Source: Pseudomonadota bacterium (GTDB lineage: Bacteria > Pseudomonadota > Alphaproteobacteria > Rhizobiales > Beijerinckiaceae). From it: a stretch of 50,581 nt of DNA. The stretch spans positions 1-50,581 of the forward strand of contig JAIUNR010000012.1 in assembly GCA_020161575.1 (NCBI GenBank). Direction: 5' to 3'. Of the stretch, positions 7,105 through 32,512 are shown piece after piece. The position numbers were made by a program, and so were the translations under genes. The notes under the pieces were generated by a model that worked only from the letters and a program-made list of their open reading frames with translations, was not told where the DNA came from and made no database searches. Position 1 is the stretch's first letter. Each line of letters starts with the position of its first letter.

Positions 7105-8291
7105 GCGATATGGATATCACCCTGAACTACCTGAGCGAGGAAAAATCACGACACGGGCGGATGCGCTACTATGCGCGGTGGAAGGGCAAGCGTGTCCGCC
7201 TCGTGGAGCGCCCCGGCTCCCCGGAGTTTCTAGAGGAATACCGCGCCGCTATCCGCAAGCTGCGCGAGGTCATGCCGACTCTTCCCGGCCCCGAGGTCGA
7301 AGAAAAGGGGGAGGCACCATTTGCTGCCAAATCCCTCGGGTGGCTGATCGAGCGCTACTTTGCCGAGAGCCCGGAATTCAAGACCCTGAACCCCATCGGC
7401 GTAAAACGCCGCCGCCGAATCCTTGAAGACCTGAAAGTCAAGCACGGTCGCCGTGGGATGATGATGACCACCGAGTCTATATCGGCCGGCGTCGCCAAGC
7501 GATCCACCACCCCCGGCGCGGCGAATGACTGGCTCAAAAGCGTAAAGGCGCTCTACTCATGGGCAGTTAAAGTCCGCATCGTTGCCTCGAACCCGGCCGA
7601 TCCTCTCCGCAAGATCAAGGTCGCGACCGACGGTTTCCACATCTGGAGCGTTGCGGAGATCGCCGCTTTTGCGTCAAAGCACCCCAAGGGCACGCGGGCC
7701 TATCTCGCATTGATGCTGTTCCTGTTCACCGGGCTGCGCAGATCAGATGCCGCCAGCTTTGGCCGTCAGCATATCCGGGATGGAGTTGTGCGATTTCGCC
7801 CCGGCAAGACCAGCACGAAAACAGGCGCGGAGCTGATTACGTCGCTCGCATGGCCTCTGAAGCAAGCCATGGATGCGTGTCCGCCGCCGTCAGACAGCAC
7901 CAGCATGGCGCTCTTGCTCAGCGGATGGAACAGAGGCTTCGCCAGCGGCAACGCTCTCGGTATGTGGTTCAAAGACCGATGCGACGAGGCGGGAATTCCC
8001 CACTGCACGCCGCACGGCCTTCGCAAGGCCGCAGCCTCGATCGCCGGAGATTCCGGCGCATCGGATCTCACGCTGGACGCAATGTTCGCGTGGTCAGAGA
8101 GCAGCGCCAACAACCAGTCCAGAGCCTATACCCGCAACGCGCGCAAGTTGAAGCTGGCGACCGAAGGATTCGATCTCGTAGCGGCCGCATTAGTCGGTGC
8201 CGGCGTCATCGCGCGGGAACAGACCGTGAGCAGCATTGTCGCACCAGGAGAGGGGATGTCGCACGGTGCGACAAAAACGATGTCTAAGTGA
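7101..8291 (+). CDS. int: Tyrosine-type site-specific integrase
   Basis: A 396-residue integrase. The catalytic set is visible: R213 in FTGLRRSDA, H305-G-L-R308 in HGLRKAAAS, and Y343 in SRAYTRNARK. The N-terminal part (residues 1-60) holds an arm-type DNA-binding region rich in Arg/Lys, followed by a core-binding SAM-like domain. It is the last gene before tRNA-Glu, so it presumably integrates at the tRNA 3' end. The 28 bases between its stop and the tRNA end are AT-rich. Confidence 0.93.
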   Translation: MSDMDITLNYLSEEKSRHGRMRYYARWKGKRVRLVERPGSPEFLEEYRAAIRKLREVMPTLPGPEVEEKGEAPFAAKSLGWLIERYFAESPEFKTLNPIGVKRRRRILEDLKVKHGRRGMMMTTESISAGVAKRSTTPGAANDWLKSVKALYSWAVKVRIVASNPADPLRKIKVATDGFHIWSVAEIAAFASKHPKGTRAYLALMLFLFTGLRRSDAASFGRQHIRDGVVRFRPGKTSTKTGAELITSLAWPLKQAMDACPPPSDSTSMALLLSGWNRGFASGNALGMWFKDRCDEAGIPHCTPHGLRKAAASIAGDSGASDLTLDAMFAWSESSANNQSRAYTRNARKLKLATEGFDLVAAALVGAGVIAREQTVSSIVAPGEGMSHGATKTMSK

Positions 8292-8318
8292 CTGAGATAC
8301 AATAAGCTATTTTAGGAG

Positions 8319-8394
8319 TGGCGCTCCCAAGGGGATTCGAACCCCTGTTACCCACGTGAGAGGCGGGTGTCCTAGGCCTCTAGACGATGGGAGC
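8319..8394 (-). tRNA. tRNA-Glu (anticodon CTC)
   Basis: A full cloverleaf can be drawn on the minus strand. The acceptor arm GCTCCCA (8394-8388) pairs with TGGGAGC (8329-8323), followed by discriminator G and an encoded CCA (8321-8319). The anticodon stem CCCGC/GTGGG encloses the loop CTCTCAC with anticodon CTC, and the T arm is AGGGGTTCGAATCCCCT. It decodes GAG. The gene remains intact after element insertion because the element would have restored the 3' end. Confidence 0.96.
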
Positions 8395-8498
8395 GCATCG
8401 CACAACAAAGGTGCGAAGTTGGTTGCTATAGGCACTCCGGCAGCGTATCGCAAGGTCAAAATTCAAGCTTGACCAGAATTTCGGGCCACACGGGAAAC

Positions 8499-9494
8499 AT
8501 GGCGGATCGATCAGAGTTCACTCTCCTGGCGGAGGATCGCGGTCAGCGGCTCGATAAGGTGCTGGCGAAGCATCTGCCGGATTTCTCGCGTGCGCGGCTG
8601 CAGGTTCTGATTGCTGAAGGCAGGATCCGCGTCGAGGGCCAGTGCGAGACAAATGCTGCACGCAAGATGCGTGGCGGCGAGGCGATTGAATTCGATCTGC
8701 CGCCCCCTCAACCGGCGAGCCCGATCGGCCAGGCCATTCCGTTGCGCGTCGTTCACGAGGATGAGGACCTCATCGTGATCGACAAGCCGGCGGGCATGGT
8801 GGTGCATCCCTCGAATGGGCATGAGACGGGCACGCTCGTCAACGCGCTGATCGCGCATTGCGGGGAGAGCCTGTCCGGCATCAACGGCGTCCTGAGGCCG
8901 GGCATCGTACATCGCCTCGACAAGGATACGACCGGCTTGCTGGTGGTCGCCAAGAATGACAAGGCGCATCGCGGATTGGCGGATCAGTTTGCCGATCACG
9001 GCCGAACAGGGCCGCTCGAGCGGGAATACCTCGCCGTGGTCTGGGGCGAGCTGCCGCGCCGGAGCGGGATGGTGGATGCCGCGATCACCCGTTCAAGCAC
9101 CAACCGCGAGAAGATGGTGGTTTCCGGCGCGGAGCGGGCGCGCTTTGCCATCACCCATTACGAGGTTCTGGAGGCGTTTCCCGGCGAGGATGGAAACATC
9201 GTCGCAAGCCTGATCGCGTGTCGGCTCGAAACCGGGCGCACGCATCAGATCAGGGTGCATCTGGCGCATATCGGCCACCCCCTGCTTGGCGACGCGCTCT
9301 ATGGCAGCGGATTTCGAACCAAGGAGCGCTTTCTCTCTCCCGCCGCGCAAGCCGCGCTCGCTGGATTGGGCCGTCAGGCGCTTCATGCCCGCACGCTCTG
9401 CTTCGAGCATCCGCGAAGCGGGGAGACCATGGCTTTCGATTCCGTGCTGCCAGATGATCTCGAAGGCTTGATCACAGCGCTGCGTGCTAGCTGA
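8499..9494 (+). CDS. RluA-family (RluD-like) pseudouridine synthase
   Basis: A 331-residue protein from the ATG at 8499. An S4 RNA-binding domain spans about residues 10-70 (RGQRLDKVLAKHLPDFSRAR). The catalytic domain has VIDKPAGMVVHPS and HRLDKDTTGLLVVAK with the nucleophile D141, then GRTHQIRVHLAHIGHPLLGD. It should isomerise uridines in 23S rRNA helix 69, as for RluD, though RluC- or RluA-type targets cannot be excluded. A TTG at 8469 gives ten extra residues; the ATG is preferred because it is preceded by a purine-rich GGGAAAC. It is followed by rpoH, an order common in Hyphomicrobiales. Confidence 0.93.
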   Translation: MADRSEFTLLAEDRGQRLDKVLAKHLPDFSRARLQVLIAEGRIRVEGQCETNAARKMRGGEAIEFDLPPPQPASPIGQAIPLRVVHEDEDLIVIDKPAGMVVHPSNGHETGTLVNALIAHCGESLSGINGVLRPGIVHRLDKDTTGLLVVAKNDKAHRGLADQFADHGRTGPLEREYLAVVWGELPRRSGMVDAAITRSSTNREKMVVSGAERARFAITHYEVLEAFPGEDGNIVASLIACRLETGRTHQIRVHLAHIGHPLLGDALYGSGFRTKERFLSPAAQAALAGLGRQALHARTLCFEHPRSGETMAFDSVLPDDLEGLITALRAS

Positions 9495-9647
9495 GGGGGC
9501 GCTGCCTCCCGCCAAAATTTCGTGATCGCGAAGTGATCCATGCCGCTATTTCGCCACGTATCGGGTGTGCTATAAGCACAATCGCGTCGAAGGGTGTCTC
9601 ACCGCGACGATGGGTCTGCCGCTTCCGGGGGCCCGAAGGAGGTATGA

Positions 9648-21545: not shown

Positions 21546-23705
<2,160 letters not shown>

Positions 23706-23806
23706 GAGTTCAGGAACGGCAAAGCGCCGGATGCGCCATCGCCTAGCATGTTCCGCGACAAATGTGCGCATTTCATTACACGAAAGCGCGTAATCACGGC
23801 TCGCGG

Positions 23807-24712
23807 CTACCGCGCGAGCGGCATTTCGCGATGGATTTCCGCCACCATCCAGTCGCGGAAGGCGATGATATCCGGGTTATAGGCTTTCGCGCGCGGATAG
23901 ACGATGTAATAGGCGCCGTCCGATCTGAGCTTCTCCGGTAGGGGCGTGACCAGCGCGCCCTTCTCGATTTCCGCGCGCGCAAGGAAGGCTGGCAGCAGCG
24001 CGATTCCCAGCCCCGCCGCGGCGGCCTCGATCATCAGGGAATAATGCTCGAAGCGAGGGCCGGCGAAGCCGTTGATGCCGCTGGCGCCGGCCCGGGCGAG
24101 CCATTGGTTCCAGGCATCCGGTCGTGTCGTGTGCTGGAGCAGGACATGGGCGGTGAGATCCGAAGCGCTGGCGAGCGGCTTGGCTGCCAGCAGTTCCGGC
24201 GCGGCAAGCACGCTCAGCTCTTCATCCATGAGATAGGTGACATGTGCGTTCGGCCAATTGGCGTCGCCGTAATGGATCACGAGATCGACCGTGTCCTCCT
24301 CAAAGCGGAAGGGCCGGATCTTGGTGACGATATTGATCTCGGTGGCGGGGCGCAGGCGGATGAAATCGCCCAGCCTCGGCATCAGCCAGCGCGTGCCGAA
24401 GGTCGGCAACACGCCCAGCGTCAACGTTCCGGCGGCCTGCCCGTTCGTCATCAGCCGCATCGCCGAGAGGCGGGTGCGATGCAGGATATCCGCGACATCG
24501 CGCGCATATTCCGCGCCGAGCTTGGTCAGGTGCAGCCGTTTCTTCTCGCGCGTGAAGAGACGGCATTTGAGCAGGGCCTCAAGCCCGGAGATCTGGCGCG
24601 ACACGGCACTCTGGGTGACGTTCAGCTCTTCCGAGGCCCTGCTCACGGAACCATGCCGGGCGACGGCATCGAAGCAGGAAAGCGCGGTCATCGATGGCAG
24701 ATAATGGCTCAT
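23807..24712 (-). CDS. LysR-family regulator (GcvA type)
   Basis: A 301-residue regulator. The N-terminal winged HTH reads [20 protein letters not shown] and [18 protein letters not shown]; the rest is a periplasmic-binding-like effector domain. The [18 protein letters not shown] opening is typical of the GcvA subgroup. It is divergent from the peptide-type ABC operon, which is its likely target, with about 200 bases of shared control region (24713-24909). I could not pick out a single convincing T-N11-A box there. Confidence 0.9.
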
Positions 24713-24909: not shown

Positions 24910-26550
24910 ATGAAGAGTCAATTTCTTGCATTCAAGGCAACAATCTCGGCAAATCTCATCGTCGGCGCGCTTACCGCTGCGTCGGGCGTCGCCCTCGCGC
25001 AACCGAAGCCGGTGCCGGAGATCGATTTCGTCACCTGGCCGGCGGCGAAATATCAGCATTACTACGAATCCTCGAATTATATCGCCGAGCAATGGCGCAA
25101 GCTTGGGCTGAAAGTGAAGTTGAATACGGCCAATTTCCCGAATCCGATGCTGGCCATGTGGTTCAAGGATCATCAGTTCGATGCAATCCTCTCGGTCTTG
25201 TCGGGATCGCCGTCGCGGCTTGAGCCTGATTTCTTCACCAATGCCCAGTTCAACTCGAAGAGCAACGGTCCCGGCGACTGGAATGTCGGCAGTTTTTCCA
25301 ATGCGCAGGTTGATAGCCTCGGCAATCAGCAGGTCCGTGTCTATGAGGACGAGGTCCGCCGTGCGTTGATCCACAAGATGCAGGAAATCCTGCATGACGA
25401 GCAGCCCGAAGGGCTGATTTCCTCGGTGGTCAACACCACGGCCATGAATACCGACACGGCCGCGATCGAGGGATTCGAGACTTCCGCCGATGGCATCCGC
25501 TCGATCTGGAATCTCGTGAAGCTCGAATCGAAGCGGGCGCAGAAGCTGGTCCGTCTCGGCTGGACCATCGATCAGGCGAGCTGGAACCCGATCACCGCCC
25601 GCACGCTGGAGGATCTTGAACGCCTCGGCCTCGTCTATGACAGGTTGATGGTTGTCGGCACGGACGGCAAGATGCGCAACTGGGCCGCCGAGAGCGTGAA
25701 GATCGTCGATCCGGTGACGATCGATGTGACGCTGAAGGACGGCCTCACCTTCTCGGATGGCAAGCCGGTGACGGCCGAGGATGTCCGTTTTTCGTTCGAG
25801 TTCCTCCAGAAGAACGAGGCGGTGTTCTACAAGAAGTTCCTTGAGAAGATCGCCGCCATCGAGACGACGGGCCCGCGCGCGATCCGCTTCAGGCTCACCG
25901 AGCCGCATGCGCCCTTCCTGCTCAACGCGCTTGGACAGGTCTTCATCCTGCCCAAGCATGTCTGGGCGGATATCGTGACACGCGAGAACCTCAAGCAGCC
26001 GCAGGATTATCGCAACGTGCCGCCAATGGGCAGCGGGGCCTATCGTCTGCGCCACTGGAAGGAAGGGCAGGAGACCTATTTCGAGCGCAACGAGAAGCAT
26101 TTCACGAAGCCCAGATCCGATCTCGCGATGATCGTGTTCGGCTCGGCCGAGGTACTCGCCGCCTCGCTCAAGAAGGGCGATCTTGATGTCTCGCTTCAGC
26201 CGCTGGTGCCCACTGTTGTCGATGAGTTCAAGAAGGAGAAGAACCTCCGGCTCTTCCGCACGCAGTCCAATGGCTACATGTCGGTGCGCTACAACGTCGC
26301 CAGGGCGCCGTTCAACAACAAGGCGTTCCGGCAGGCGCTTTCGCAGGCCATTCCCTATGAGGCGATCATCGCCGAAGTGCTCAATGGCGATGGCGGGCGC
26401 ACGGCGGCGGCGATCACGCCGGTGAATGCCTATTGGTACAACGACAAGGTCAAGCCGGTTGAATTCTCCATCGAGAAGGCGCGCGCCACCCTCAAGGCCG
26501 CGGGCTTTTCGTGGGCGGCGGATGGCAGCCTGTTGATGCCGGCGCAATGA
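24910..26550 (+). CDS. Peptide-type (SBP_bac_5) ABC binding protein, apparently circularly permuted
   Basis: A 546-residue periplasmic protein with a signal peptide cleaved after A30. Residues about 36-205 (YIAEQWRKLGLKVKLNTANF, QFDAILSVLSG, RRALIHKMQEILHDEQPEG) match the segment that normally lies near the C-terminus of SBP_bac_5 proteins. Residues from K212 (LVRLGWTIDQASWNP, YDRLMVVGTDGK, TFSDGKPVTAEDVRFSFEF at 281-299, MGSGAY at 373-378) match the normal N-terminal part. The protein stops at LKAAGFSWAADGSLL, where the usual C-lobe would continue. The total length equals one copy, so this is reordering, not duplication. The start follows GGAGGTC. It is first gene of the importer operon. Confidence 0.88.
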   Translation: MKSQFLAFKATISANLIVGALTAASGVALAQPKPVPEIDFVTWPAAKYQHYYESSNYIAEQWRKLGLKVKLNTANFPNPMLAMWFKDHQFDAILSVLSGSPSRLEPDFFTNAQFNSKSNGPGDWNVGSFSNAQVDSLGNQQVRVYEDEVRRALIHKMQEILHDEQPEGLISSVVNTTAMNTDTAAIEGFETSADGIRSIWNLVKLESKRAQKLVRLGWTIDQASWNPITARTLEDLERLGLVYDRLMVVGTDGKMRNWAAESVKIVDPVTIDVTLKDGLTFSDGKPVTAEDVRFSFEFLQKNEAVFYKKFLEKIAAIETTGPRAIRFRLTEPHAPFLLNALGQVFILPKHVWADIVTRENLKQPQDYRNVPPMGSGAYRLRHWKEGQETYFERNEKHFTKPRSDLAMIVFGSAEVLAASLKKGDLDVSLQPLVPTVVDEFKKEKNLRLFRTQSNGYMSVRYNVARAPFNNKAFRQALSQAIPYEAIIAEVLNGDGGRTAAAITPVNAYWYNDKVKPVEFSIEKARATLKAAGFSWAADGSLLMPAQ

Positions 26551-26645: not shown

Positions 26646-27452
26646 ATGCTCGAAGCGATTTCCCTCACGAAAACCTATCCGCCACGCATGGGCCTCTCCA
26701 TGCCATGGCGGCGGCCGGCACCGGTTGTCGCAGTGCGCGCGGCGAGCCTATGCGTCGCGCCCGGCGAGGTGCTCGGCATTATCGGCCAGAGCGGCAGCGG
26801 AAAATCCACCCTGGGGCGGATGCTTGTCGGGCTCGAAAAACCGAGTTCCGGCCGCATCATGATCGGCGGGGAAGATGTCGCCGATTTGCTCAGGCGCGAC
26901 CGCATGGCCTTCTACCGGCGGATACAGATGGTTTTCCAGGACCCCTATGGGTCCATCAACCCACAGCATGGCGTCTTCGAGACGGTGACGCGCCCGCTCC
27001 TCTATCAGCGCGAACGCGACACCAAGGTGCTTCAGGCGCGGGCGAAGGATGCGCTTGAGCGTGTGGGATTGCGCCCCGCCGCCCGCTATCTCGAAACCCA
27101 TCCTCACCGGCTGTCGGGCGGTCAGCGGCAGCGCCTGTGCATCGCCCGCGCGATGATCCTCGAACCGCGTTATCTCGTCGCCGACGAGCCGATCTCGATG
27201 CTCGATGTCTCGATCAAGTGGGACATCATCCGTCTGCTCAAACGGCTCGTGACCGAGGAAGGGCTGGCGCTGATCTATATCACCCATGATCTCGCGACGG
27301 TGCGCAGCCTCTGCCACCGCGTGATGATCATGCGCGCGGGCGAGATTGTCGAAGAGGGGCCGGTCGATGCCGTGCTCGATGCGCCGCGCCACGAATATAC
27401 CCGTGCCTTGATCGCGGCCTGCCCCTCCGGCGTGCCGGAGGTGGCGGCATGA
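26646..27452 (+). CDS. Peptide-type ABC transporter ATPase (OppF/DppF-like)
   Basis: A 268-residue ATPase. Walker A is GQSGSGKST, signature LSGGQRQRLCIARAMILEPR, Walker B YLVADEP, and H-loop YITHDL. The RIQMVFQDPYGSINPQHGV segment is typical of the OppF/DppF branch. It lacks the C-terminal oligopeptide extension with Cys residues that the partner ATPase (29296-30345) has. It overlaps the first permease by ATGA. Cytoplasmic, drives import of the ligand caught by the preceding binding protein. Confidence 0.93.
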   Translation: MLEAISLTKTYPPRMGLSMPWRRPAPVVAVRAASLCVAPGEVLGIIGQSGSGKSTLGRMLVGLEKPSSGRIMIGGEDVADLLRRDRMAFYRRIQMVFQDPYGSINPQHGVFETVTRPLLYQRERDTKVLQARAKDALERVGLRPAARYLETHPHRLSGGQRQRLCIARAMILEPRYLVADEPISMLDVSIKWDIIRLLKRLVTEEGLALIYITHDLATVRSLCHRVMIMRAGEIVEEGPVDAVLDAPRHEYTRALIAACPSGVPEVAA

Positions 27453-28420
27453 CCAGCTTCCTTCTCCGCCGCCTCGGCTTCATGTTGCTCACGCTTTTCG
27501 TGATGGCCAGTGCGATGTTCTTCCTGTTCCGGCTGTTGCCGGGCGATCCCACCGCCACGGTGATCAGCCCTGCCCTTCACCCGGATGCGCAGGCGGTGCT
27601 CAAAGCCCGCTTCGGGCTCGACAAGCCCCTCTGGCAGCAATATCTCGCTTATATTGCCAATCTCGCGCGGCTCGATTTCGGATATTCCTTCGAGACTGCG
27701 CGGCCCGTTTCCGAAGTGATCGGCGACAGGCTCGCCAATACGCTCCTCCTGCTCCTGCCTTCGCTCATCGCGGCTTATGTCGTCGGTGCGCTGATCGGCG
27801 CCTTCATCGCGTGGCGGCGGGCCGGCGCGCTCGATACGATCATTGTCGTACTCGCAACCGCCCTGCAATCCGCGCCGGTCTTCTGGGTCGGGATGATGGC
27901 GATCCTGTTCTTCTCCCTCCATCTCGACCTGTTTCCGGTGGGGCATATCGTGACGCCGGGTCGCCAGATGGAGCCCGGCCTCATGGGCTATCTCGACCCC
28001 GACGTGCTGCACCACCTCGCGCTGCCCTTCTTCGTCAACTTCGCCTACCAGCTATGCTTTCCGCTGTTGCTGATGCGCACCTCGATGCTCGCGACGATCG
28101 GCGAGGATTTCATCGATCTCGCGCGCATGAAGGGGCTTTCTGAGCGCAAGGTGCTGATGCGCCATGCCATGCGCAATGCCCTTCTGCCACTCGCGACCAC
28201 GCTGCCGATGCTGCTGGGATGGGCGGTTGCCGGATCGGTCGTCATCGAGACGGTGTTCTCGTGGCCCGGTCTCGGCCTGCTGATGGTCGGCGCGGTGGAA
28301 CGCAACGATTATCCCGTGGTGCAGGCCTGTTTCATGCTCTCCGCGCTTCTCACGGTCATGGGCACTTTCATCGCCGATCTTCTCTATGGGGCGCTCGATC
28401 CCCGCATTGCCTACGAGTAA
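27449..28420 (+). CDS. ABC transporter permease (DppB-like)
   Basis: A 323-residue inner-membrane protein. FLLRRLGFMLLTLFVMASAM and FFLFRLLPGDPTA are the DppB/OppB N-terminal signature, and the EAA loop reads EDFIDLARMKGLSERKVLMR. About six membrane helices are visible. It pairs with the DppC-like permease that starts 4 bases after its stop. Confidence 0.94.
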   Translation: MTSFLLRRLGFMLLTLFVMASAMFFLFRLLPGDPTATVISPALHPDAQAVLKARFGLDKPLWQQYLAYIANLARLDFGYSFETARPVSEVIGDRLANTLLLLLPSLIAAYVVGALIGAFIAWRRAGALDTIIVVLATALQSAPVFWVGMMAILFFSLHLDLFPVGHIVTPGRQMEPGLMGYLDPDVLHHLALPFFVNFAYQLCFPLLLMRTSMLATIGEDFIDLARMKGLSERKVLMRHAMRNALLPLATTLPMLLGWAVAGSVVIETVFSWPGLGLLMVGAVERNDYPVVQACFMLSALLTVMGTFIADLLYGALDPRIAYE

Positions 28421-28424
28421 GTCC

Positions 28425-29294
28425 ATGCGCCTGCTTCTTGTATCCGGCCGCCAGTTCATCAGGGTTGTCACCGCGACGACGACGGGGAAGATCGCCCTTG
28501 CGATCTGTCTGCTTTGCCTTGTGATCGGGGTTTTCGCGCCCTGGATCGCGCCGTTCGATCCTGCGCAAAAGCATTACGAGGCGGGCAAGCTGCTCCGCCT
28601 GTCGCCGCCGAGCTGGAAACATTGGCTCGGCACCACCTCGCTGGGACGGGATGTGCTGAGCCAGATGATCTGGGGCGTACGGCCCGCCTTGCTGGTGGGC
28701 TTTAGCGTCGCGCTTGGCTCCGCGATCATCGGGGCGAATATAGGCCTGCTCGCGGGCTATTTCGGTGGCAGGCTCGACAATGCCCTGATGCGCTTCACCG
28801 ATATCGTGATGGGTGTGCCGTTCCTGCCCTTCGTGATCGTGATGCTCTCCGTCACCGGCAAGGGGCTTTGGAGCCTCATCCTCGCCATGGTGCTGGTGAT
28901 GTGGCGGGCGAGCGCGCGTATCATCCGCGCGCAGGTTCTCTCGTTGAAGGAGATGCCTTTCGTCTCGGCGGCGCGCATCACCGGCGGCTCCGAACTGGCG
29001 ATCCTCTATCGCGAGATCGCGCCGAACATCTTGCCGCTGGCCTTGGTGAACATGGCCTTCACCCTTGCATGGGCGATCACCACGGAAGCCAGCATCGGCT
29101 TCCTCGGCTTCGGCGATCCCGACGTGATCAGCTGGGGCGGCATTATCTACGACGCCTTTGCCTCGCAGGCGATGTATCGCGCGCCTTGGTGGGTGGCACC
29201 GCCGGGGATCGCGATCATGGTGCTCGTTTCCGCCGTCTATCTCGTCGGGCGTGAATACGAGAGCGTTGTCAATCCCCGTCTGGGAGGGCGCTGA
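28425..29294 (+). CDS. ABC transporter permease (DppC-like)
   Basis: A 289-residue inner-membrane protein. The N-terminal helix is followed by APFDP and [18 protein letters not shown], the DppC/OppC signature. The EAA loop is [20 protein letters not shown], and [20 protein letters not shown] is typical. The ATG at 28425 gives the standard length; the frame opens upstream inside the DppB-like gene. Confidence 0.94.
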
Positions 29295-29295
29295 C

Positions 29296-30345
29296 ATGGG
29301 TGCCATGCTGTTGCCGCTTCTGACCATCGAGGGGCTGGATATTGCCTTTTCCACCGCGCGCGGCGAAGCCATGGCGGTGAAAGGGATCGATCTGACGATT
29401 CCGCCGCATACGATCTATGGCCTTGTCGGGGAATCCGGCTGCGGCAAATCCACGCTTCTCAAGGCGATCATCCGGGTGATGGCCTCGAATGCGCGCATCG
29501 CGGGCGGGAAAATCCGCTTCGAGGGAGAGGATCTTGTCGCCCTCCCGGAAGCGGTGATGCGCGCCCGGCGCTGGCGGCATGTCTCCATGATCACCCAGAG
29601 CGCGATGAACGCGCTCAACCCCGTGCGCCGGGTGGGCGACCAGATCGTCGAGGCGATCCGCGAGCATGAGCCGGTTTCGCGCCGGGAAGCAGAGGCGCGC
29701 GCGGCGCGGATGCTCGGGATTGTCGGCGTCGATCCCGGACGCATGAACGACTACCCGCATCAATTCTCGGGCGGGATGCGCCAGCGCGCCCTGATCGCGA
29801 TGGCGCTGGCGCTCGGGCCGGAACTGGTGCTCGCGGACGAGCCGACGACCTCGCTCGATGTCATCGTCCAGGACGAGATTTTCCGGGAAATCCGGCAGCT
29901 TCAGGCCGAGCGGGGCTTCTCGATGATCCTCGTGACGCATGATATCGCGCTGGTGCAACGCCATTGCGCGCGCGTCGCGGTGATGTATGCGGGCGAGATC
30001 GTGGAGGACGGGCCCGCCGAAGCCGTGCTCAGCGAGGGCGCGCATCCCTATACGCTTGGCCTGAGAAACGCGGTCGCCCGCCTCGACACGAAGCGCGAGC
30101 CGATCTCCATCCCTGGCCAGCCGCCGGACCCGTTTCAGCCTGAAGCGGGGTGCCCCTTCGCGCCGCGCTGCCCCTTCGCGCTTGAAAAATGCCGGCAGGA
30201 CAAACCTCCGCTCCGGAAGATTGCGCCGGGGCATCGCGCTGCCTGCCATCGTGCCGAGGAAAGCGCCGAACTCGGGCGTCAGGCCCTCAGGCCCGAAACC
30301 TGGGACAAGCTCGCTCCTCCTCCCCCACCAGCCCGAACGGAATGA
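29296..30345 (+). CDS. Peptide-type ABC transporter ATPase (OppD/DppD-like)
   Basis: A 349-residue ATPase. Walker A is GESGCGKST, signature [20 protein letters not shown], Walker [15 protein letters not shown]-loop LVTHDI. The C-terminal oligopeptide-type extension has [14 protein letters not shown], with the conserved Cys cluster that may bind 4Fe-4S as in related OppD/DppD proteins. It starts 1 base after the DppC stop. Operon order here is binding protein, F-type ATPase, B, C, D-type ATPase, unlike the common A-B-C-D-F order. Confidence 0.94.
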
Positions 30346-30347
30346 TC

Positions 30348-30800
30348 ATGACCTATTTCGCCTATGCCAATCTTCTCGACATCGACCGCATGCGCTCCAT
30401 GGCTCCGAGCGCGACCCCGCTCGGGATCATGACGCTGCCGGGCTATCGCCTCGCCTTCGCCTGGTGTCAGGGGCGCGACATGGGCGGCGCCACCTTGCGC
30501 AAGGAGCAAGGCGCAACCCTCTATGGCGTCAATTATGCGATGAGCGATGAGGATCTTGTCGCGATGGACAAGGCATCGCTCACGCATCTCAACAAGTGGC
30601 GGCGCATGCCGGTGACGGTGTTCGACGAAGCGGGCAAGGCGCACGAAACCTCGACCTATTTCATTCCCGATGCCGAGGAGGGCGTCTTCACGCCCCCGCT
30701 CGACAATTACGTGCTGCCCATGCGCAAGGGCATGAAGGCTTACGGCTTTCCGGTCGCCTATCAGACCCAGCTCGAGTCGTTGCTCGCGACGGGTGCGTGA
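30348..30800 (+). CDS. GGCT/AIG2-fold protein lacking the expected catalytic Glu
   Basis: A 150-residue protein. YFAYANLLDIDRMRSMAPSA and LPGYRLAFAWC match the gamma-glutamylcyclotransferase-like fold (YFAYGSNL, LPGYRLAF). In active members the segment GVVYxLxxEDLxxLDxxEG supplies the catalytic Glu; here it reads GVNYAMSDEDLVAMDKASLT, with Ser at that position. Cyclotransferase activity is therefore doubtful, and binding or another reaction is possible. ACGGA precedes the ATG at 30348; an ATG at 30342 overlapping the previous stop is an alternative. It is last in the importer operon, so it probably handles the imported ligand. Confidence 0.75.
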   Translation: MTYFAYANLLDIDRMRSMAPSATPLGIMTLPGYRLAFAWCQGRDMGGATLRKEQGATLYGVNYAMSDEDLVAMDKASLTHLNKWRRMPVTVFDEAGKAHETSTYFIPDAEEGVFTPPLDNYVLPMRKGMKAYGFPVAYQTQLESLLATGA

Positions 30801-30810
30801 TCAGCCGTCT

Positions 30811-31671
30811 TCACAGGCCGAGGAAATCCCGGATCTCGCCGCGAAGGATTTCCGGCGCATCCACCCGCATCGTGTGGCTGCAATCCGGGACGATCCTGAG
30901 CCGCGAGCTGGGGATCAGCGCATGGATTTCCTCGGAGAATTCGGGCGCGCAGATCCAGTCCTTCTGACCGGCGAGGATCAGGGTCGGCACGCGGATGTTC
31001 TTCAGCTCCGGGCGGAGATCCAGGCGGCGCAAGGTGCCGCCCGGCTTGAAAGCCTCCACCAGAGGCTCGGGGGAGACGATCGCGTGTTTCGCGCGCGCGG
31101 CGGCGCGCTCGGCATCGAACTTCACCGAATACATTGGCCCCATATGGCGGTAGTAATTCTGCACCTTCTCCACCGTATCGAGACGGCCGGCCCAGAGGTC
31201 CTCGCAGACCGCGATCTGTTCCGCTGAACCCCGCGCGCGGACATGCGCCAGCGCTTTATCGTTGAAGCCCGCATGGGAGGCGGTGACGATCAGGATCAGA
31301 TGCGAGACGGAATCAGGATAGCGCGCGGCATGGGCCATCGCCACCATGCCACCATAGCTCGTGCCCATCGTCACGATCTTGCCGAGACCGAGATGGCGGC
31401 GCAGCGCCTCCATATCCTCGACATTCTCATCCAGATTGTATTTGGCGCGATCGCCTCTCGCCGAGCGGCCCTGTCCCCGATGATCGAAATAGACGATCTG
31501 CATCGCTTCCGAGAGCGGAGAAAAACCCAGGCGCAGCTCGACATGCTCCCCGCCCGGCCCACCGTGAATGGCGAAGGCCGTCTTCTTCTCGTGCAGGCCG
31601 TTCTCGTCGATGCGAAGGCCCGTGCCCTCGACATCGAAATAAAGCTCGGTATCGCGAATGGCAGCGCGCAT
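30811..31671 (-). CDS. Alpha/beta hydrolase, proline iminopeptidase-like
   Basis: A 286-residue hydrolase. HGGPGGEH forms the oxyanion region, DHRGQGRSARG the conserved strand-loop, GTSYGGMVAMAHA the nucleophile Ser elbow, D in LAGQKDWICAPE and H in PDCSHTMRVD the rest of the triad. This is the S33 proline iminopeptidase-like group, which removes N-terminal proline or cleaves related amides. It converges on the peptide importer operon, ending 10 bases from the GGCT-like gene. The cap domain (about 135-195) is present. Confidence 0.87.
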   Translation of the reverse strand: MRAAIRDTELYFDVEGTGLRIDENGLHEKKTAFAIHGGPGGEHVELRLGFSPLSEAMQIVYFDHRGQGRSARGDRAKYNLDENVEDMEALRRHLGLGKIVTMGTSYGGMVAMAHAARYPDSVSHLILIVTASHAGFNDKALAHVRARGSAEQIAVCEDLWAGRLDTVEKVQNYYRHMGPMYSVKFDAERAAARAKHAIVSPEPLVEAFKPGGTLRRLDLRPELKNIRVPTLILAGQKDWICAPEFSEEIHALIPSSRLRIVPDCSHTMRVDAPEILRGEIRDFLGL

Positions 31672-31753: not shown

Positions 31754-32512
31754 TCAGGGCGCGGCGCGCCGGAGCAGATAGGTATCCATGATCCAGCCGT
31801 GCCGGTCGCGCGCGGCGGCGCGGGCGGCGCGGATGCTCGGGGCAACCTCCGCGAGCGGGCCGGCGATCAGGATTTCATGCGGTAGACCGAGAAAGGCGCC
31901 CCACCAGATCGTGTACGCGCCCGGAAGGAGGGTTTCGAAGGCGAGGGTGCCGTCAAGCAGTACGGCGAGCGTTTCGGCATCTTCCGGCCAGCCCTTGTCG
32001 CGCAGGTTGCGTCCGGTCGTGATCGTCACCGCCCCGCCGATCGTGTTGAGCGGAATCGCGTGGGCGGCGGCCAGCGCCTGAAGCGCGGTGATGCCGGGGA
32101 CGACCTTTGTCTCGACCGCGAAAGGCAGCGATTGCGCGATGCGCAAGGTGCTGTCGTAAAGCGAGGGATCGCCCCAGACGAGCAGCGCGACATGCCCCTT
32201 CTCGCCCAGCTCCCGCCGGATCGTTTCGGCCCAGATCGCGGCGATGCGCGCGTGCCAATCCTCGACGCGGTGGCGGTAATCCGGCTCGGCTTCGTCACGC
32301 CGAGGCATCGCGAAAGGCGCGAGGCGCGCGCGGGGATGGATCGCGAATTCATCGCAGATCGCGCGGCGCAGGGCCGCGAGATCCGCTTTTTCCTCCCCCT
32401 TCTCGGGGATGAGGATGAGATCGGCCCGTGCGATCGCCTCGATCGCCTCGAGCGTGAGATGGGCACGGCTGCCCATGCCGATGCCGATGAGCGCAAGCCG
32501 GATCATCGGCAT
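31754..32512 (-). CDS. cobF: Precorrin-6A synthase (deacetylating)
   Basis: A 252-residue SAM-dependent methylase of the aerobic B12 route. CobF methylates C1 of precorrin-5 and releases the acetyl group, giving precorrin-6A. LALIGIGMGSRAHLTLEAIE is the N-terminal glycine-rich segment. VALLVWGDPSLYDSTLR and VVPGITALQALAAAHAIPL are the tetrapyrrole-methylase SAM-binding motifs. It follows cbiM by 12 bases, so should share its riboswitch. The ATG at 32506 is an alternative start. cobF is found in the oxygen-dependent pathway only. Confidence 0.95.
   Translation of the reverse strand: MPMIRLALIGIGMGSRAHLTLEAIEAIARADLILIPEKGEEKADLAALRRAICDEFAIHPRARLAPFAMPRRDEAEPDYRHRVEDWHARIAAIWAETIRRELGEKGHVALLVWGDPSLYDSTLRIAQSLPFAVETKVVPGITALQALAAAHAIPLNTIGGAVTITTGRNLRDKGWPEDAETLAVLLDGTLAFETLLPGAYTIWWGAFLGLPHEILIAGPLAEVAPSIRAARAAARDRHGWIMDTYLLRRAAP

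Follow-up and report, generated by a model that had tools for sequence, protein, structure and literature searches.

The gene at positions 24910 to 26550 of the window (the whole 50,581-nucleotide stretch analyzed here) raises the question of whether the solute-binding protein of an ABC importer can carry the segments of its chain in rotated order. A sequence-only reading had described it as a circular permutation that arose naturally and became fixed within a complete importer operon, and profile searches, structure prediction and relatives all support this description. The gene very probably encodes a circularly permuted, natural form of the SBP_bac_5 solute-binding protein (family 5, cluster C, Dpp/Opp/Nik-like) that serves a complete ABC importer. 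The permutation is real, old and widespread within a known family, and we found no evidence in our analysis against the permutation itself. The features of the gene are as follows:

24910..26550 (+), circularly permuted SBP_bac_5-type solute-binding protein, 546 residues plus stop (profiles, survey and structure prediction)
24910..24999 (+), putative signal peptide, residues 1-30, ALA before Q31, no lipobox motif (by eye)
25000..25524 (+), residues 31-205, which cover the second half of lobe 2 and the return to lobe 1 and are homologous to the last part of normal-order family-5 chains
25525..26547 (+), residues 206-546, which cover lobe 1 and the first half of lobe 2 and are homologous to the first part of normal-order family-5 chains
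25525..25560 (+), approximate region in which the old C-terminus joins the old N-terminus

Order of the two segments

The open reading frame runs from an ATG at 24910 to a stop codon at 26548-26550 and encodes 546 amino acids. In a profile search of its own genome, 25672-26529 corresponds to positions 2-285 of the SBP_bac_5 model PF00496 (189.9 bits), and the upstream stretch 25039-25263 corresponds to positions 294-365 (19.3 bits, alone under the 32.4-bit cut-off). The protein as a whole scores 203.5 bits, well above the gathering cut-off of 32.4, with model positions 294-365 placed upstream of positions 2-285 rather than in the usual N-to-C order. Because the model order is rotated, we refer to the protein as a permuted variant and not as an ordinary SBP_bac_5 member. 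Each of the other 18 SBP_bac_5 matches in the same genome follows the model in normal order, and the search returned no second match to the C-terminal part (C-part) at the window locus.

Searching the two segments separately, as the sequence-only reading had proposed, places them in the late and the early part of the model, respectively. Residues 31-205 match PF00496 positions 298-365 (E 4.9e-4, 19.8 bits, under the cut-off) and residues 206-546 match positions 2-284 (E 1.6e-55, 189.2 bits). The proposal that residues from about 36 to 205 are the segment that normally ends SBP_bac_5 proteins, and that the segment from residue 212 is the one that normally begins them, is therefore borne out. 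Two outcomes had been named as speaking against it, namely a failure of the first segment to match the late part of the model and coverage of the whole model by the second; the first segment does match late, and residues 206-546 stop at position 284. The claim that the length equals one copy also holds: the two segments together make a single copy, neither is doubled, and there is a single cut site. As for the individual motifs, MGSGAY does lie at residue 373, and TFSDGKPVTAEDV, which had been placed at 281, begins at residue 280.

The weak score of the first segment on Pfam is complemented by profiles of our own, one for the part before the cut (N-part) and one for the C-part, built from only 18 normal-order proteins of the window genome cut at the corresponding loop. 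On the normal-order C-part HMM the first segment reaches 42.9 bits, whereas 5000 shuffles reach at most 11.6; with the N-part HMM it gives no match (-2.1 bits).

Comparison with solved structures gives the same order. Residues 31-205 used as a single sequence have four matches to solved chains at E≤1, three of them late in the chain (421-543, 369-472 and 373-489) and the fourth early (3drf 42-89, E 0.35). Since this search was weak, a family profile of the first segment was used instead, and we consider its result decisive: 55 PDB sequences match at E≤0.1, all at chain positions of at least 328, with a best E of 3.1e-13. Residues 206-546 match early chain positions, such as 59-345 of AppA, and with a profile of the full-length family the best-matching stretch lies early in the chain in the best 60 of 106 PDB matches. 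No solved permuted chain is found among the 55 matches of the C-part profile or among the best 60 of 106 matches of the full-length profile.

Cut site, predicted fold and chain ends

In normal-order chains, an AG(W/Y/F) turn, and in many of them also a DG loop, precedes the strand that opens the C-part. In the window protein the corresponding loop, AGFSWAADGSLLMPAQ (from residue 531), forms the C-terminus and is where the cut lies, and after the signal peptide the chain starts at the strand that follows that loop. Of 106 distinct permuted open reading frames (ORFs), 105 have an N-part match that stops at HMM position 352-353 of 355, and the cut site is therefore shared. The exception, L084, is a shortened ORF. 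At that locus (7878-9564) the remaining N-part is encoded by a second ORF in a different frame, which looks like a frameshift in that metagenome-assembled genome (MAG).

Structure alignment places the N-part-like and C-part-like segments at 18-357 and 355-509 of AppA (1xoc), 1-347 and 337-504 of DppA (1dpe), and 1-361 and 350-513 of OppA (1ola), so that the cut maps to OppA residues ~350-361. Domain III of OppA (lobe 2) we take to be residues 271-486. The cut thus falls inside lobe 2, and both chain ends are consequently relocated from lobe 1 to lobe 2. The chain runs from the second half of lobe 2 through lobe 1 to the first half of lobe 2 and should retain two hinge crossings. Of the earlier description as two lobes in swapped order, the permutation stands; the exchange of whole lobes does not, as the cut sits in a loop within lobe 2.

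AlphaFold2, run with 80 permuted sequences and without templates, predicts one compact fold for residues 31-546 (pLDDT 93.2, pTM 0.91); the first segment folded alone reaches a pLDDT of 76.0 and a pTM of 0.58. The best Foldseek match is NikZ for the full model (E 9.5e-20) and YliB for the first segment alone (E 9.2e-5). Among the VIA-align matches listed, at most 50 per search so that other folds may match as well, the segments, folded whole and apart, align with the reciprocal parts of AppA, DppA and OppA. The predicted structure is the two-lobed fold of family 5, the usual clam-shell, in which a short linker would join the old ends and the new ends would lie in a loop of lobe 2. Judged by the prediction's own confidence, the two parts would pack as in normal-order proteins. 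Closing on the ligand and hand-over to two permeases would proceed as in other binding proteins, with the signal-peptide or anchor end now on lobe 2.

By eye, the window protein has a hydrophobic start resembling an ordinary cleavable signal. Of the five haloarchaeal members, four have a lipobox-like motif. In L208 and L209, two permuted proteins from archaea, a stalk followed by a hydrophobic helix extends the chain, by eye, at its new C-terminus, and in the normal-order proteins L203 and L206 of the same genome a tail of this type sits at the customary end, suggesting that the tether has moved to lobe 2 in L208 and L209.

Distribution and origin of the permuted order

A survey of homologues, which had also been suggested, finds the permuted order recurring across many loci. 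A search of 61 genomes returned two distant full-length members besides the window protein (30% and 26%). Within the same family, a three-row profile of the junction matches 18 genomes out of 397, counting that of the window, and all 18 loci are full-length and permuted. At the phylum level the three-row profile matches the window's own genome only (1/398), and at the class level a 26-row profile gives full-junction matches in 13 of 385 genomes, two results that are not comparable with each other as both profiles and draws differ. Twelve of these 13 are permuted by the order test and one (L158) has overlapping segments. The class-level draw has 39 matching genomes in all, 26 of them matching at one junction half only; 17 of the 26 are represented by loci (L160-L176), every one of normal order.

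A C-part search of named genome contigs found a permuted ORF in 80 of 80 loci among the matches listed; these loci were chosen by similarity to the permuted C-part and at least 80 exist, hence the count is no measure of prevalence. Most are from Alphaproteobacteria, and the others are from MAGs labelled as a beta-proteobacterium, Rubrivivax, Desulfobacteraceae, Trueperaceae (Deinococcota) and Desulfurococcales (Archaea), labels that may be wrong. Plasmid records are firmer than MAG labels: 76 match, in 38 of these the match extends over 80% or more of the query at a single place, and the eight plasmid loci examined, five of them haloarchaeal, are all permuted. All eight annotate the permuted form just as 'ABC transporter substrate-binding protein'. 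Five further loci, two of which are repeats, are permuted as well. Counting ORFs of at least 300 amino acids with an N-part match over all surveyed loci, 131 are permuted (106 distinct) and 76 normal, 19 of the latter coming from the training-set loci of the HMMs; the remaining ORFs comprise four with the N-part only and one with overlapping segments. Both orders can occur together: one archaeal MAG (Desulfurococcales label) has permuted L207 (the same gene as L134), L208 and L209 beside normal-order proteins. The same cut site is thus common to a family found in bacteria and archaea.

Whether this order arose once was addressed with a quick tree of 86 rows, representing 28 of 111 permuted ORFs (the 106 distinct ones plus five added later) and 58 of 76 normal ones after thinning at 62% identity, L158 and the four N-part-only ORFs being excluded. 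Twenty-five permuted rows, among them the window protein, group together (SH-aLRT 94). The tree, in which several long branches meet, requires four changes of the order label, as three outlying permuted rows are interspersed with normal-order ones, two of which come from the same archaeal MAG. When the 28 permuted rows are constrained to group together, the likelihood is higher by 3.96 (p-AU 0.555); a single origin is accordingly not rejected, but neither is it shown. Two marks in the C-part largely follow the order. Of the 28 permuted rows, 23 have an Arg in the ligand loop and 25 a two-residue insert beside it; for the 58 normal rows the numbers are 3 and 6.

Alternatively, the permuted order may have arisen at least twice, for example in the main bacterial and haloarchaeal group and separately in thermophilic archaea. 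L209 groups with the normal-order L203 and L206 of its own archaeal MAG (support 97), L208 and L210 fall outside the main permuted group, and the Arg mark is missing from five of the 28 permuted rows, L208, L209 and L210 being without the Arg loop. We nevertheless regard repeated origin as rather unlikely, given that the AU test does not reject one clade, that the constrained tree scores higher, and that L208 and L210 share the cut site (N-part end 353) and L209 is cut nearby (348).

The protein could instead be a chimera in which domain shuffling brought the N-terminal segment from another binding-protein gene, with no rotation of one ancestor involved. The C-part is indeed far more divergent (19.8 versus 189.2 bits on Pfam), and the authors of the study of Tp0684, a permuted binding protein discussed below, raise the same possibility for their protein (PMC4990184). 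The segments of the permuted proteins, however, meet at matching points, with the same N-part end in 105 of 106 distinct ORFs, and one loop forms the junction on both sides. In normal-order proteins, too, the C-part generally tends to be the less conserved half, which would count against a chimera, and we consider this origin improbable. That the gene is broken, or an artefact of assembly or of a frameshift, is scarcely credible, as nothing we found supports it and it is ruled out by the uninterrupted ORF, by relatives of 56-57% identity with the same order in other genomes, and by complete plasmids with the same order and the full operon.

The permuted order may well have arisen a single time, and the simplest route would be an in-frame tandem duplication followed by loss of both outer ends. 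No ORF with an extra C-part, as expected of an intermediate, is present among 182 distinct ORFs, which counts against the duplication route.

Known binding proteins, the importer operon and its ligands

Compared with the normal members of family 5/cluster C (AppA, DppA, OppA and NikA/NikZ), the permuted form has its N-to-C order rotated and its chain ends in lobe 2, and most permuted members add two residues and an Arg in a loop of the C-part. The NCBIfam models Opp4A, NikA, DppA, GsiB, SapA, CntA and TIGR04028 are matched partially, in their early part; among six permuted proteins scanned, all matches are far under the cut-off, none has its best stretch past profile position 388, and no model naming the permuted form was found. 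The open-access full text searched yielded, among the papers listed, no published permuted family-5/cluster C protein, in agreement with the earlier remark that no description of permuted members was known.

The sole published natural permutant of an ABC binding protein that we found is Tp0684 (TpMglB-2) of Treponema pallidum, described as a cluster B solute-binding protein for which the names 'Type Ic' or 'Cluster Bc' were proposed (PMC4990184). The two cases are alike in that a natural permutation of an ABC solute-binding protein is common to relatives. They differ in that Tp0684 belongs to cluster B, binds glucose/galactose, has three N-lobe strands moved and gains a fourth hinge crossing (PMC4990184), whereas the window protein should stay at two crossings. 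Anchoring is among the possible reasons for the permutation discussed in the Tp0684 study (PMC4990184). The window protein has no relation to the cluster B sugar-binding proteins in Pfam, where the matches at E≤1 are SBP_bac_5 and one sub-threshold viral polymerase model. The permuted form of the large peptide/nickel family, present in importer operons of many bacteria and archaea, appears to be ancient and to have been overlooked. Nature provides here a test of whether lobe closing and permease docking depend on where the chain ends and the anchor sit. Partial-profile searches or rules based on domain order will misread the permuted form.

In the window locus, Dpp/Opp-type permeases and ATPases lie alongside the binding-protein gene:

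23807..24712 (-), LysR-type regulator, divergent
26646..27452 (+), ABC ATPase; oligo_HPY tail at 25.2 of 27.1 bits, slightly under the cut-off
27449..28420 (+), permease, DppB/OppB type (BPD_transp_1 and N-terminal domain)
28386..29294 (+), permease, DppC/OppC type (BPD_transp_1, OppC_N)
29296..30345 (+), second ABC ATPase with oligo_HPY, start inferred
30348..30800 (+), gamma-glutamylcyclotransferase-like protein (GGACT/AIG2_2, slightly over the cut-off), start inferred; last gene of the operon

The same set recurs in the subfamily to which the window protein belongs (subfamily A). Two ATPases, two permeases and the cyclotransferase are present in all 11 loci counted (L059-L067, L069 and L140), a count that leaves out L051 and L055-L058 as too short. 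These genes lie downstream on the same strand as the binding protein in 10 of the 11 and on the other strand in L059, and 10 of the 11 loci also have a LysR gene. Nearly all other permuted loci that are long enough have the order binding protein, permease, permease, ATPase, ATPase; at L134 the permeases alone are visible. The neighbours of subfamily B include Peptidase_M28 (25 of 75 ORFs), IclR (11), Hydantoinase_B/oxoprolinase (10) and Asp/Glu/hydantoin racemase (9), counts that are rough because a crude pick on base composition reduced 154 candidate ORFs to the 75 surveyed, which come from 28 loci lying between L070 and L133.

Gamma-glutamyl, pyroglutamyl (5-oxoproline) and hydantoin-type compounds would fit the neighbours of both subfamilies. 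On the basis of its neighbours, the window importer might take up gamma-glutamyl or pyroglutamyl-type compounds for processing by the adjoining cyclotransferase, a doubtful but possible function. Tentative, too, is a wider proposal in which the permuted proteins would form an ancient cluster C subclass of single origin ('cluster Cc'), present in Pseudomonadota, haloarchaea and, by MAG labels, Deinococcota and thermophilic archaea. The anchor of its lipid- or helix-anchored members would have moved to the other lobe, and the Arg ligand loop of most members would suit acidic or amine-blocked ligands of the gamma-glutamyl, 5-oxoproline and hydantoin types.

Tail to tail with the operon lies an alpha/beta hydrolase gene (30811-31671, minus strand) with matches to Abhydrolase_1 and S33 aminopeptidase, whose motif presumably resembles that of proline iminopeptidases; it may belong to the same peptide metabolism as the importer. 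Other neighbours are unrelated, namely a tetrapyrrole methylase (31754-32512, minus strand) and a radical SAM protein (21546-23771, minus strand; Radical_SAM_N and DUF3362), which we take to be of the YgiQ type.
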